From the NCBI RefSeq assembly GCF_000739715.2, contig NZ_BBJC02000002.1, positions 336,731-400,730 on the forward strand: a DNA stretch of 64,000 bases, written 5' to 3'. Shown one piece after another: positions 14,319 through 53,431 of the stretch. The first letter of the stretch is position 1, and every line of letters begins with the position of its first letter. The translations under genes and the position numbers were made by a program. A model generated the notes under the pieces. The model made no database searches. It was not told the origin of the DNA and was given only the letters and a program-made list of their open reading frames with translations. Origin of the DNA: Falsirhodobacter sp. alg1 (GTDB lineage: Bacteria > Pseudomonadota > Alphaproteobacteria > Rhodobacterales > Rhodobacteraceae).

Positions 14319-15332
14319 TTATCCGATCATCGGGCCGCGCCCGTGATGTTCGGCATAGTGCCTGCGCAGCCGCTCCAGCCCGATCCGCAGCACCACCTTT
14401 CCCGATCGTGCAGCCCAGCCCATGCGGCGCTCGCACACCTCCAGTCCCTCCAGATAGCAGCAGACCCGAAGCACCACGTCCCCCAGGCCGGGGCCAAGGT
14501 CACGCAAGGCGGTTACAACCCTGTCACGCGCCGCCGCGGGGCCTCGATCCGTACCGCCGAAGGGTGTGCTACGAACCCCGCCATCCAGAAACCGCTCCCA
14601 GTTCTGCGTCATTCCGGGCACCATCTGGGCTAGCTCGAAATCCTCGCGCAGGCGTTCGGCCGCGATCACCAGCTCCGGGGGGAGAAACGGCTTGCCATCC
14701 TTGTCCCGACGCCGCCCCATCGCCGCTACAGGCGTTTCAACCGTGCCGTATCGCGGGGTCCGATCCGCAGCGGTGGCACCTGCCCAACCGAATCCGGCAG
14801 CCGCCTCTGCCATACCTCCGGACTGGCGGATATAGGCACGGCCGGCAGCCGTGATGACATAGGTGCTGATACGGCCAGCCGTGCGGCAGCTGATCCATTC
14901 CCGCAGCGCGAATGCTTCGGCAATCACACCATCCACCACCGCAAGCCGCGCCGTCTCTCCTGCGGCCAATTCGCGCAATACCACTGCTTTTTCCATGGCA
15001 GGTGCATAGGCCAGCACGGTGTTGGGTTCAGCCATCCGCCGCAGGATACGCTGCGCCTCCATTTCCACCTTCGGATCAGGGGCGATAGTCGTGGAAATGC
15101 TGGTCATCACATCATCTTTCGTGGAAAGCGCCGCTTCAAGGCGCGTCAGGGCAGCATTGATCAGGGGATCATCGCGACGGTTTTCGTATCGGCGGACCTG
15201 CCGCATTACCGTGGAAGGGTGCACACCTTCCCGCCGCGCCAATGCGCGCAACGACAGGCCTGCATCGACATGATCAAGATACAGCCGCAACCCATCGGGC
15301 AAGGTCCGGGGGAACACTGGAATACATCCCAT
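14319..15332 (-). CDS. DUF6456 protein with N-terminal HTH (candidate GafA-like GTA regulator)
   Basis: 337 residues from the ATG at 15332; an in-frame ATG at 15365 is possible. The N-terminal ~60 residues hold an HTH (SLRALARREGVHPSTVMRQV). The C-terminal half matches the DUF6456 pattern (AAERLREDFELAQMVPGMTQ, then ARDRVVTALRDLGPGLGDVVLRVCC and LEGLEVCERRMGWAARSGKVVLRIGLERL). Together with the divergent DUF6477 gene this is a conserved Rhodobacterales neighbourhood. From memory, this type of locus corresponds to the GTA activator gene gafA and its small neighbour in Rhodobacter capsulatus; I am not certain of that equivalence. A DNA-binding regulator is well supported, control of the GTA cluster is an inference. 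Confidence 0.7.
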   Translation of the reverse strand: MGCIPVFPRTLPDGLRLYLDHVDAGLSLRALARREGVHPSTVMRQVRRYENRRDDPLINAALTRLEAALSTKDDVMTSISTTIAPDPKVEMEAQRILRRMAEPNTVLAYAPAMEKAVVLRELAAGETARLAVVDGVIAEAFALREWISCRTAGRISTYVITAAGRAYIRQSGGMAEAAAGFGWAGATAADRTPRYGTVETPVAAMGRRRDKDGKPFLPPELVIAAERLREDFELAQMVPGMTQNWERFLDGGVRSTPFGGTDRGPAAARDRVVTALRDLGPGLGDVVLRVCCYLEGLEVCERRMGWAARSGKVVLRIGLERLRRHYAEHHGRGPMIG

Positions 15333-15398
15333 GATCGACAATCCTTTGCCGCACATGGCGGACACCTTTATGACACATTTGTAATCACGCAGGTATGG

Positions 15399-50456: not shown

Positions 50457-51800
50457 TCACAACCCCCTAACCTGCGGTCGCGCCCAAACCGAAGACGGCT
50501 CGATCATCAATTCCCACAGCCCCCAGACCAGTGCATCCACACGATCCGGCGATCCCTTACCTTCGTAACCACCCATGGTCATGCGGCACATCTGGTCCTC
50601 CAGCTTTGCAAGCCCCCGCAGGTGCCGCACACGTCCCTGTTCATAAAGCGCGGCAATGGGCTCCGCTCTCGCAACCTTCCCCTTGCTTGCCCGAACAGCC
50701 CGAAACGGCACCAGAGGATCAATTCCCCGAATGACCGTCTCCACCAGATCCCCCCCCTGGTTTACCTCCGCAACCAGCCGGTCGGCCCCGTGCCGCGCCA
50801 TCGCCGCCAAGGCGGCCCGCGCCCATTGGTCCGGGCTTGCGGCCTTCACGCTCGCATCTTCCAGCACCACCGCGCGCCATGTATGGGGCGGCCCGTCCGT
50901 CACGGCTCCGACTACGACAATGCCGCATTCATCCGACCCGGCATGTCCGGTCACGGGCGGGTCAACCGCCACCACGATCCGGTTCAGCGCGGGCGCGGCA
51001 TCCATACGCCCCGCTTCCAATGCAGGCGTCGTCCACATCGCACCCTCGACATCCTCCAGCAGAACGCCATCCAGTTCCTGCGCCCCCAACCGGGTTCCCT
51101 CGTACCGAGCACGAACCTCCGCTAGAAAGCTGGCCGCAAGATAGGCACGGTTCGCCTCGGTCGGCGCATGGGTCACCACCGTCGACGGATTCTTCAGAAT
51201 GGTCTTCAGCACTCCCACGTTGCGCGGCGTGGTGGTAATGACCTGCCGCGGGTTCTCGCCCAGACGCAGCGCGAATTGAAGCATGTCCCAGGTTTCCTCG
51301 GCCTTCTTCCACTTGGCCAGCTCATCCACCCAGGCGGCATCGAATTGCGGCCCGCGCAGGCTCTCGGGCTCATGCGCCGAGAATACCTGTGCAATCGCAC
51401 CGTTCGGCCACACCAGCCGCCGCCGTCCCGCCTCCCATTCAGGCCTCCTGTCCGGAGGAGAGCAGGCAAGTATCCCGCTCTCCCCGAAAACCATCACTTC
51501 CCTCACCTGGTCGATCGTCTCCCCAACCAAGGCCACACGGCGCGACCGGCCATTGTCCAAGGGTCGCGCCCCTTCAACTTCGGCCCGAACCCACTCCGAA
51601 CCGGCGCGGGTCTTGCCCGCCCCCCGCCCGCCCATGATGACCCAGCTTTTCCACACCCCATCGGGCGGCAGCTGATGCGGCAATGCCCAGAATTCGAACA
51701 GCCAAGGCAACGCCAACAGCGCATTCGTCCCCAGACCATCCAGAAACGCATCGACATCAGCCTGCGTCGCGGAGGCGAGCCAACCTGCGCCCGATCTCAT
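50457..51800 (-). CDS. GTA g2: large terminase (packaging ATPase)
   Basis: 447 residues from the ATG at 51800 (MRSGAGWLASATQADVDAFL); in-frame ATGs at 51827 and 51869 are alternatives. Walker A WVIMGGRGAGKTRAGSEWV, Walker B-like QFDAAWVDELAKW, nuclease-domain acid RIVVAVDPPVTGHAGSDECG. GTA terminases package host DNA without sequence specificity. It overlaps g1 by 44 bases; the stop lies 134 bases from the portal start. Confidence 0.95.
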   Translation of the reverse strand: MRSGAGWLASATQADVDAFLDGLGTNALLALPWLFEFWALPHQLPPDGVWKSWVIMGGRGAGKTRAGSEWVRAEVEGARPLDNGRSRRVALVGETIDQVREVMVFGESGILACSPPDRRPEWEAGRRRLVWPNGAIAQVFSAHEPESLRGPQFDAAWVDELAKWKKAEETWDMLQFALRLGENPRQVITTTPRNVGVLKTILKNPSTVVTHAPTEANRAYLAASFLAEVRARYEGTRLGAQELDGVLLEDVEGAMWTTPALEAGRMDAAPALNRIVVAVDPPVTGHAGSDECGIVVVGAVTDGPPHTWRAVVLEDASVKAASPDQWARAALAAMARHGADRLVAEVNQGGDLVETVIRGIDPLVPFRAVRASKGKVARAEPIAALYEQGRVRHLRGLAKLEDQMCRMTMGGYEGKGSPDRVDALVWGLWELMIEPSSVWARPQVRGL

Positions 51801-52074
51801 CTCGCGCAAGCTCAAGGTCGACTGCATAGTCGTTGACGACGCCGGCAACCTGTTTCCGAAGTTTTTCAACCCGTGTCCTTTCGTCCATCACCATCTGAAA
51901 AGCGGCGCGAAGGTCTTTCACCGCCCGCACCGCCCCCGTCACATCCGCCAGATCACCCGCACTCACCCGACGCGTCGCCAGCGCCAGTTCCTCGGCCACC
52001 TCGCGATAAAGCCTCTCCGTCTCCGCAAGCAGATCCACCTGCGCAGCTTCCTTGAACGAGAGTTCCATTTTCAT
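51757..52074 (-). CDS. GTA g1: small terminase
   Basis: 105 residues, largely helical with heptad-like repeats (LLAETERLYREVAEELALATRR; RTRVEKLRKQVAGVVNDYAV). g1 of R. capsulatus was shown to be the small terminase lacking cos/pac-specific DNA binding. The ATG at 52074 and one at 52068 are both possible. First gene of the cluster, behind a terminator-containing leader. Confidence 0.9.
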   Translation of the reverse strand: MKMELSFKEAAQVDLLAETERLYREVAEELALATRRVSAGDLADVTGAVRAVKDLRAAFQMVMDERTRVEKLRKQVAGVVNDYAVDLELARDEIGRRLARLRDAG

Positions 52075-52119
52075 TTCTGCCTGTCCCGCCTTCTCGTGCC
52101 CCGCACAAGCGAATGCAAA

Positions 52120-52150
52120 AACGGCCCGAAGGGCAGCGCCCCGGGCCGTT
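52120..52150 (-). terminator. intrinsic terminator inside the GTA leader (candidate attenuator)
   Basis: AACGGCCCG (52120-52128) and CGGGCCGTT (52142-52150) form a perfect 9-bp stem; in the minus direction the second arm is followed by TTTTGC. It lies 46 bases before g1 and 26 bases after a candidate promoter, so transcripts from that promoter would meet it. It could also serve mltG, 100 bases upstream. Confidence 0.8.
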
Positions 52151-52175
52151 CGTACATTCTTCCAGCATGCATGAA

Positions 52176-52204
52176 TCCCTATCAGGGACCGCGCGCAAAG
52201 TCAA
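52176..52204 (-). promoter_or_regulatory. candidate GTA cluster promoter with overlapping palindrome
   Basis: On the minus strand TTGACT (52199-52204) as -35, 17-base spacer, TAGGGA (52176-52181) as a poor -10. The -10 overlaps a 13-base palindrome TCCCTGATAGGGA, and GTTAACAT lies upstream. A weak -10 under a palindrome would suit an activator- or repressor-controlled promoter. No transcript data support it. Confidence 0.45.
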
Positions 52205-52249
52205 GCAAATACAATATGTTAACCGATCGCATGCTTTACGATCCGTTCA

Positions 52250-53431
52250 TCATTCGCGCGTTTGCACTCCGCCCTCGGGCAGCTCGCCCTTGGCACGCTC
52301 GATCTCGCGCCACTTCGCAACATTGGCGTTATGCTCGTCCAGCGTCCGTGCAAACGCATGCCCGCCCGATCCATCCGCCACGAAGAACAGATAATCGGAA
52401 TCCGCCGGATGCAACGTCGCCTCAATGCTCAACCGCCCCGGATTGGCAATCGGCGTCGGCGGCAAACCGTCGATGACATATGTATTGTAGGGCGTCCGCG
52501 CCCGAAGCTCCGATGCCCGCAGGCCACGACCCAATGTGCCCTCACCCTTGGTCACGCCATAGATCACCGTCGGATCCGTCTGCAGACGCATGCCCTGACG
52601 CAGCCGGTTCACAAAGACACTCGCCACCATCGGCCGCTCGTCCGCAATCCCCGTTTCCTTCTCCACGATAGAGGCCATGACAAGGGCTTCTGCCATCGTT
52701 TCATAGGGCAGACCTTCCTCACGTCCGGCCCACATATCATTCAAAATCCGCTGTTGGCGCGCTGCCATCAGCAGCAGCAACTCCGAGCGGTTGTCCCCCT
52801 TGGAAACCTCGTAGCTGTCGGGCGCCAGCGTTCCTTCATCCGGCACTTCGGCCACATCGCCGTTCAGGAAATCGGCCCGCTTCAGGCTGTCCACAACCTG
52901 CCAGCTCGTCACACCTTCCGCCAGTGTCACCCGCAGGCGCAGGTCGTCATCCGCCTCGGCTTCCGCCAGCGCTTCGGGCATCTCGCCCGCCTGCGGATCA
53001 TACTTCACGATTTCCTCGAACCGTCCCGTTGCCGGGTTCAGATCACGCAGCACCATCTGCGATGAGGCTACGCCGATCTGATAGTTGATCTCGCGCCCGC
53101 AGGTCGATTGCCCGCCCGCCGTCACGATATCCAGAATCTGCGGCATGGAGGCAGAGGTCGGGATCAGATAGCTTCCGAACTTTTCCTGCCCGCCCTTGCC
53201 AGAGTAATTCGCCCCGATCCGGTAAACGGTACCGCTGCTGATCGCTCCCTGCTTCTCCAGCGTGGCTGCGATCGTTCTCGTGTTCTCGCCGCGTTCGATC
53301 CGCAAACAGATCGGCTGCGCCAACGGCCCGGGTTCATAGAAAGTCTGTCGCCCCCAAGCGATCAGGCCCGCTGCCAGAACCAGCAGCACGATGAACATCG
53401 TCAACGTGTTGGAGGCGATTGATTTCCACAT
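52250..53431 (-). CDS. mltG: endolytic murein transglycosylase MltG
   Basis: 393 residues. One N-terminal membrane anchor (MWKSIASNTLTMFIVLLVLAAGLIAWG), a LysM-like region (RGENTRTIAATLEKQGAISSG), and the YceG catalytic domain with EALVMASIVEKETGIADERPMVASVF, including the catalytic Glu, and PYNTYVIDGLPPTPIANPG. It cuts nascent glycan strands in the periplasm. Start codon overlaps the fabF stop (TGATG). Confidence 0.96.
   Translation of the reverse strand: MWKSIASNTLTMFIVLLVLAAGLIAWGRQTFYEPGPLAQPICLRIERGENTRTIAATLEKQGAISSGTVYRIGANYSGKGGQEKFGSYLIPTSASMPQILDIVTAGGQSTCGREINYQIGVASSQMVLRDLNPATGRFEEIVKYDPQAGEMPEALAEAEADDDLRLRVTLAEGVTSWQVVDSLKRADFLNGDVAEVPDEGTLAPDSYEVSKGDNRSELLLLMAARQQRILNDMWAGREEGLPYETMAEALVMASIVEKETGIADERPMVASVFVNRLRQGMRLQTDPTVIYGVTKGEGTLGRGLRASELRARTPYNTYVIDGLPPTPIANPGRLSIEATLHPADSDYLFFVADGSGGHAFARTLDEHNANVAKWREIERAKGELPEGGVQTRE

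Follow-up and report, generated by a model that had tools for sequence, protein, structure and literature searches.

The GTA leader of Rhodobacteraceae as a probable antitermination switch released by GafA

The GTA cluster in much of the Rhodobacteraceae is preceded by a compact leader in which a presumed promoter is followed, at a near-fixed distance, by a covarying hairpin and T-run. We consider it probable (roughly 60%) that this leader is a promoter-proximal antitermination switch, similar to those operated by Q, AlpA and GafZ, and that it is released by GafA. The promoter-plus-terminator anatomy is well supported by comparison of leaders from across the family, in which the element keeps its spacing, is restricted to GTA leaders and co-occurs with GafA. 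Because GTA release kills the producing cell, how the GTA genes stay off matters. An elongation checkpoint is unmentioned in the RcGTA literature examined, and a literature search that excluded most subscription journals found no leader terminator for a Rhodobacteraceae GTA.

Anatomy of the leader

The window analyzed is a 64,000-nt stretch of Falsirhodobacter sp. alg1 (contig NZ_BBJC02000002.1); coordinates are window positions, and all features described lie on the minus strand. In gene order, this strand carries a gene that from its sequence is presumably fabF, then mltG, the leader (52075-52249), g1, terL, and the genes for portal, protease, capsid and tail. The YceG-like mltG (52250..53431; PF02618, E 4.7e-77) is the upstream neighbor and stands outside the switch. 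Downstream, g1 (51757..52074, with its ATG at 52074) gave no Pfam match and was assigned as the small terminase subunit by position and homology, its homologues preceding terL in relatives; g2, or terL (50457..51869), encodes the large terminase (Terminase_6N and Terminase_6C).

The presumed GTA promoter consists of a -35 element, TTGACT (52199..52204), a 17-nt spacer with a conserved CGnnCGnTC (52182..52198), and a weak -10 element, TAGGGA (52176..52181), whose family form is TAnnnn. Judged from the position of the -10, transcription would start at about 52168-52170, in a near-invariant block, CA(T/A)GCT(R)GAAGAA (52155..52169), that presumably holds the start site and the first transcribed bases. 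TTGAC occurred in 55/55 aligned leaders, and TTGA stood at the expected place in 88 of the 89 leaders anchored on the block. Promoter spacing and profiles were derived from 88 leaders: the distance from TTGA to the block was 37 or 38 nt in every one, and the -10 place held TA in 84 and CA in 4, at a fixed 17-nt spacing. Mean information was 0.86 bits per position in the spacer and 0.90 in the -10, compared to 0.17 in the 30 bases before the -35, and reached 1.60 over the 12 positions of the block from CA to GAAGA; the 1.74 bits of the -35 are inflated by construction because rows were aligned on TTGA. Counted from the start of TTGAC, the spacer bases G at +10 (99%), C at +13 (100%) and G at +14 (94%) are almost fixed, and the unpaired CA.GCT of the start-site block is held at 97-100%.

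Two other promoter placements were considered and rejected. The near-invariant GCTRGAAG in the initially transcribed region resembles GCTANAWC, which we take to be the alphaproteobacterial -10 consensus; as the true -10 it is disfavored by the upstream TA at 17-nt spacing in 84/88 leaders and by its key base (R), which is G in 53% of the 88. By eye, no second promoter was found in the roughly 40 nt between the hairpin and g1. A consensus scan of the window DNA reported neither promoter nor terminator, because the window -10 shares just 2 of its 6 bases with TATAAT and the stem, asymmetric by 2 nt, contains a nested helix; the case for both elements thus rests on conservation.

Upstream of the -35, full CtrA-like sites (TTAA-N7-TTAA, which we take to be the CtrA motif) occurred within 110 nt in 20/88 leaders, compared to a mean of 0.19 and at most 2 in shuffled sequence. 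All 20 had a spacing of 7; none was seen at 3-6 or 8-10 and few at 11-12. The window leader has a half site only. In R. capsulatus, the available text reports that CtrA does not bind the GTA promoter (PMC6363796); direct CtrA control of GTA may exist in other genera.

Just downstream of the presumed start site lies the predicted terminator, a GC-rich hairpin (GAACGGCCCG...CGGGCCGTTT, 52119..52151, dG -23.8 kcal/mol) whose inner stem covaries, followed directly by a T5 run (52117..52121). This moderate U-tract is the predicted 3' end of a leader RNA of ~50 nt. The initial annotation had placed a 9-bp GC stem with a T-run here, downstream of a promoter-like element. Its coordinates for both features proved right to within a few bases and the hairpin and T-run were borne out, whereas the stem is longer than it had stated: an outer helix (52159-52153 / 52117-52111) extends it past the T-run, its 3' arm (52111..52117) pairing with the first transcribed bases (52153-52159). 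The segment 52165-52108 folds at -33.8 kcal/mol (z -5.4), a value equaled by 0/200 shuffles. A hairpin plus T-run at dG <= -12 was present in 88/89 anchored leaders, compared to 12/89 dinucleotide shuffles and 0/68 mltG coding windows; the median distance from the anchor to the T-run was 46.5 nt.

Pairing was assessed in alignment A1, for which eight odd or near-duplicate leaders (L042, L043, L053, L081, L086, L101, L105 and L116) were removed by hand from the 89 anchored ones and the remaining 81 thinned to 55. Over 19 stem pairs, 88.8% of cells pair, and sliding the partner by 1-3 columns lowers this to at most 58.8% (54.5-58.8% for one column). Cells changed on both sides numbered 63, compared to 21.5 in shuffles, and the covariation score was 0.321, compared to 0.202; neither value was reached by any of 500 shuffles. 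The outer helix is partner-specific as well (-5.63 kcal/mol with its own partner vs -5.07, sd 0.17, with permuted partners; 0/200, n=85), and its pair 49/102 of A1 is AU in 31 leaders, GU in 7, CG in 5, GC in 1 and other in 8.

A second stem-loop, CTTGTGC-GGG-GCACGAG (52093..52109; arms 52109-52103 / 52099-52093), lies between the T-run and g1, and a stem of the CTCGTGC/GCATGAG type occupies this place in many leaders. It folds modestly better than shuffles (median z -1.25, below -2 in 25/82 leaders); we rejected it as a covarying element, since permutation gave no partner-specific signal (n=51).

Occurrence across the family

We searched 198 family genomes, with few exceptions one per genus, and found TerL in 173. 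The 115 loci that we compared come from 110 of the 150 genomes among the better-scoring TerL matches listed, plus five congeners, so that the sample leans to good GTA clusters. Comparison of leaders across relatives, by which the initial annotation had proposed to judge the element, upheld it: -35, spacer, -10, block, hairpin and T-run recur upstream of g1/terL in 89/115 loci, each scoring >20 bits with a PWM of 72 positions anchored on GCTRGAAGAA, while the best control scores were -13 (shuffled upstream DNA) and -14 (mltG coding sequence, 84 loci). Of the 26 PWM-negative loci, 13 (L006, L015, L032, L037, L057, L064, L066, L072, L082, L097, L102, L103 and L117) have a hairpin plus T-run at dG <= -9 no more than 66 nt from the g1 start, whether that start was found or projected; in the remaining 13 such a structure is absent or lies farther from g1.

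The element is specific to GTA loci. Exact matches to the block CAWGCTRGAAGAARTGGGCRARCGG numbered 109 stretches in the genome collection and 25 in the viral one; terL follows within 1.5 kb on the same strand in 124 of these 134, and terL or g1 in 128. The other six carry the same leader, and in five of them the sequence ends within 1 kb; in L142, which has exact block and leader, neither terL nor g1 was detected downstream. Phage relatives were considered and rejected: 210/210 phage TerL matches were <60% identical, and 25/25 block matches of the viral collection precede terL or g1.

A covariance model of the leader gave a single match in its own genome at 72 bits (next best 15) and matched 137/198 family genomes, 136 of them once. 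Of the 138 matches, 115 sit 231-492 nt upstream of a listed terL; the remaining 23 comprise 21 without a terL among the matches listed, one on another contig and one weak second match. Among the 150 genomes whose TerL is listed, 34 gave no match. Among 385 genomes from across the class, both matches of at least 72 bits belong to Rhodobacteraceae and no GTA leader was found outside this family; the same survey lists three Rhodobacteraceae members without a match. Seven weak matches outside the family (24-31 bits) were rejected, since their adjoining DNA showed no homologues of terL, g1, mltG or fabF.

We examined the ORF that follows the leader in 20 of the 21 matches without a listed TerL place. 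In ten loci from ten genera (L280 G043, L281 G055, L283 G070, L284 G079, L285 G092, L286 G104, L288 G137, L289 G139, L290 G140 and L291 G144), this ORF joins TerL residues 1-184 in frame to gp15 from about residue 640-650, the frame having been checked from match coordinates. It is open over 827-878 aa in 8/10 loci (split in G055, cut by the contig end in G139). g1 was detected in 8/10 and DUF6456 in 10/10 of these genomes, one of which is that of the isolate Ruegeria sp. HKCCSA071 (L144; the sequences agree throughout 3700 bases). No capsid gene close to the GTA one was found in the ten; five weak capsid matches (29-37% identity) in G070, G092 and G144 were taken to belong to other prophages. 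Three pairs of fusions gave dN of 0.31-0.43, dS of 1.33-1.76 (near saturation) and dN/dS of about 0.23-0.28. The fusion may have a single origin; a weakly resolved tree of the TerL N-terminal part (51 rows) scatters the ten. These loci look like a maintained GTA remnant, although their retention of the leader is partly a matter of selection, as they were chosen by it.

Different deletions stand behind the leader in L282 (G030), L287 (G111) and L292 (G193): the first keeps TerL to 184 and then a short match to a later part of TerL, the second passes from TerL 154 to gp15 1184 onward, and the third from TerL 185 to the final part of the tail tube gene. In L293 (G141, 60 bits) and L294 (G095, 52 bits), the leader matched and none of the 12 GTA proteins searched for was detected in the next 6 kb. 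Sixteen genomes have TerL matches that score weakly (E 1e-66 to 1e-104); the model matched 13 of them, the exceptions being G017, G045 and G147.

GafA and the proposed switch

A gafA homologue (14319..15365) was found with the PF20057 profile in the same window, 37 kb from the leader. Its 348-aa product joins an N-terminal HTH_23 (31-68, E 1.4e-6) and a C-terminal DUF6456 (205-338, E 2e-56) in one protein, the layout of a GafY-GafZ fusion. From the starts used for alignment (Met at 15332 in the window), the homologue has 337 aa compared to 375-385 aa in aligned relatives, about 20 residues being absent between a beta-rich middle part and DUF6456, and the preceding linker being shorter too. Its AlphaFold model was poor (pLDDT 68, pTM 0.40) and gave no PDB match at E <= 0.001.

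DUF6456 is present in 178/198 family genomes, and presence alone fails to separate genomes with a listed TerL into those with the element (113/116) and those without it (34/34). Detection of the element does vary with the DUF6456 score. Among 152 genomes with DUF6456 and a TerL match at E < 1e-140, the element was detected in 75/77 with a DUF6456 -log10 E of at least 60, in 31/44 at 54-60 and in 10/31 below that, two of the latter ten (G022 and G087) having very low DUF6456 scores yet strong leaders. In statistics that ignore phylogeny, the Spearman correlation of the element was 0.63 with the DUF6456 score and 0.54 with the TerL score; partial correlations were 0.49 for DUF6456 given TerL and 0.33 for TerL given DUF6456. 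Common descent may lie behind part of this correlation.

Judged by distance from g1, the place at which GafA binds in R. capsulatus corresponds to the conserved promoter and start region. Its C-terminal part is reported to bind 76-125 bp upstream of g1, over -10, -35 and start site, and its N-terminal part on both sides of that stretch (PMC6363796, PMC9638019, in the text available). At equal distance from g1, the window has 52150-52199, just upstream of the hairpin loop. Counting against antitermination, GafA of R. capsulatus is reported to activate via the omega subunit, the available text describes no antitermination for it, and the word 'terminator' is absent from both GafA papers. The authors of the Caulobacter GafZ study raise antitermination by GafA as a possibility (PMC11150451); GafA as an antiterminator has therefore been suggested in print already.

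In the switch that we favor, polymerase would start at ~52168-52170, from a promoter whose -35 is consensus and whose -10 is weak, and would meet the intrinsic terminator within about 50 nt. Without GafA, most transcripts would end as a short leader RNA spanning about 52170 to 52117. GafA would bind the promoter and start region and load onto polymerase there; the modified polymerase would then pass the hairpin and transcribe the whole GTA cluster. The spacer motif would occupy the place of the GafZ, Q and AlpA binding elements of other systems, as judged from the ZBE, QBE and ABE positions given in the accessible parts of PMC11150451, PMC6606751 and PMC7969949. No palindrome like the Caulobacter ZBE was seen by eye in the family spacer consensus.

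As in the Q, AlpA and GafZ switches, a terminator lies downstream of the promoter of the controlled genes, although that promoter is recognized here by sequence only. Caulobacter crescentus offers the closest regulators, GafY and GafZ, which are homologous to GafA; GafZ is reported to be an antiterminator whose binding element in the main cluster promoter falls between -10 and -35 and which lets polymerase pass terminators (PMC11150451, in part). GafZ reportedly has one promoter target there, and here the element is single in 136/137 genomes. The arrangements differ in that the reported Caulobacter terminator follows the first gene (three 150-bp repeats), whereas ours lies within about 50 nt of the presumed start; the Caulobacter leader measures about 250 nt, and the text available reports no terminator within it (PMC11150451); and the Caulobacter -35 is degenerate (AATCAT), whereas here it is TTGAC. 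Given a near-consensus -35, the Caulobacter GTA promoter was reported to be active without GafYZ (PMC11150451, in part). Since TTGAC is invariant in 55/55 aligned leaders, initiation may be less tightly gated in Rhodobacteraceae, and the terminator may carry the block. With no leader found outside the family among the 385 class genomes, the leaders give no sign of common descent with the Caulobacter switch.

The late promoters of lambdoid phages (lambda, 21) have a promoter, a binding element between -35 and -10 (in the GTA leader a candidate one), a special initially transcribed sequence and a downstream intrinsic terminator, as the GTA leader does. They differ in that no Q homologue is involved here, as far as seen, and that the near-invariant GCTRGAAG is at most a candidate for their -10-like pause element, its would-be key A being G in 53% of leaders. 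Reportedly, to go by its title, one paper concerns antitermination in the Bartonella GTA. AlpA of Pseudomonas aeruginosa (alpB promoter, terminator tB) is a Q-like antiterminator used by its host. Its binding element is located in the spacer, and the first gene is immediately preceded by an intrinsic terminator; by eye the AlpA motif, GGGACGN5GGTA, loosely resembles the GTA spacer. The protein is a different one, GafZ being reported to lack similarity to known antiterminators (PMC11150451, in part). GafA/omega activation in R. capsulatus involves the same protein family and the same bound promoter region, but is described, in the portions available, as an initiation mechanism.

Alternative readings and implications

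The hairpin might instead serve as an insulator that stops read-through from mltG or another upstream gene, with GafA acting at initiation only and transcripts leaking past the hairpin. mltG is indeed the upstream neighbor in 88/115 loci, and in the window some 100 nt separate its stop codon from the hairpin. Among 70 mltG-adjacent anchored loci, only 23 were flagged as having another terminator ahead of the -35, some of these calls (the window's included) looking spurious, and for this reason the hairpin probably also ends mltG transcripts in many mltG-adjacent genomes. However, an insulator would need no fixed distance from the promoter and would be best placed upstream of it, whereas the hairpin lies downstream of the presumed start site at a near-fixed distance; it also coexists with separate strong terminators, for example in L013, L060, L068, L083 and L087. 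Moreover, 27 loci lack mltG in the upstream DNA examined, and 19 of them keep the element. Pfam assigned the upstream gene in 14 of these 19: ten are codirectional, as an insulator would have it, but four are divergent (L019, L070, L105 and L011, in the last of which the gene is an IS110 transposase at a distance of 535 nt), leaving nothing upstream to terminate. On these grounds we rejected an mltG terminator as the whole story and consider insulation an unlikely main role; the earlier proposal that the hairpin is a feature of the GTA leader downstream of the presumed promoter, more than a terminator of mltG, is supported by the same 19 and four loci.

It is also rather improbable that the hairpin acts chiefly as RNA, folded at the 5' end of the long GTA mRNA to protect it from 5'-dependent decay or to bind a protein, with termination a minor effect. 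Pairing does begin within about 10 nt of the presumed 5' end, takes in the T-run and is partner-specific in the outer helix, and two leaders (L036 and L092) retain pairing despite a weakened T-run, as would be expected of a structural role more than of termination; the T-run is nonetheless present with the hairpin in 88/89 leaders, and the unpaired CA.GCT shows that the start-site sequence is conserved beyond the needs of pairing. A classical attenuator, in which a ligand or the translation of a leader peptide would exert control and GafA would have no part in elongation, would fit the layout, a structured, conserved leader and terminator ahead of an operon being usual for attenuators. We give it very little credence: a leader peptide was rejected because neither start codon nor frame is conserved (51% of 88 leaders have the T of CATGCT, and in the congeners L004 and L113 the frame closes after a few codons), the leaders showed no evident alternative pairing, and a search of 8 loci against Rfam gave 0 matches at E <= 1. 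Just as slight is the chance that the ~50-nt terminated leader is the main product, a small RNA acting elsewhere. The strongly conserved first transcribed bases and the presence of the leader in ten genera without a GTA-type capsid gene would suit such an RNA, but 128/134 exact block matches lie in cis to GTA genes and the conserved part coincides with the place bound by the C-terminal part of GafA in R. capsulatus.

The antitermination switch thus remains our preferred reading, and under it Rhodobacteraceae appear, unlike Caulobacter, to have moved part of GTA control from initiation to elongation. A more speculative extension, which we put forward as a doubtful possibility, is that a single 100-bp cassette acts as an elongation checkpoint and makes GafA a new class of processive antiterminator. 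This cassette would combine the promoter, a loading site for GafA that extends over the first 20 transcribed bases and a terminator folded from those same bases. Together with GafA it would persist in at least ten genera that have lost the capsid region, driving a remnant (g1 and the TerL-gp15 fusion) that has its own function.

If the switch operates as proposed, host-domesticated phage genes would join the logic of Q and AlpA, and the binding of GafA over the start site would be explained. The GafA binding region, published to 50 bp (PMC6363796 and PMC9638019, in the text available), can now be resolved to specific conserved bases, and the leader terminator offers a simple reporter test of GafA as an antiterminator. 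Conserved across much of the family, this terminator would give GTA silencing a physical site.
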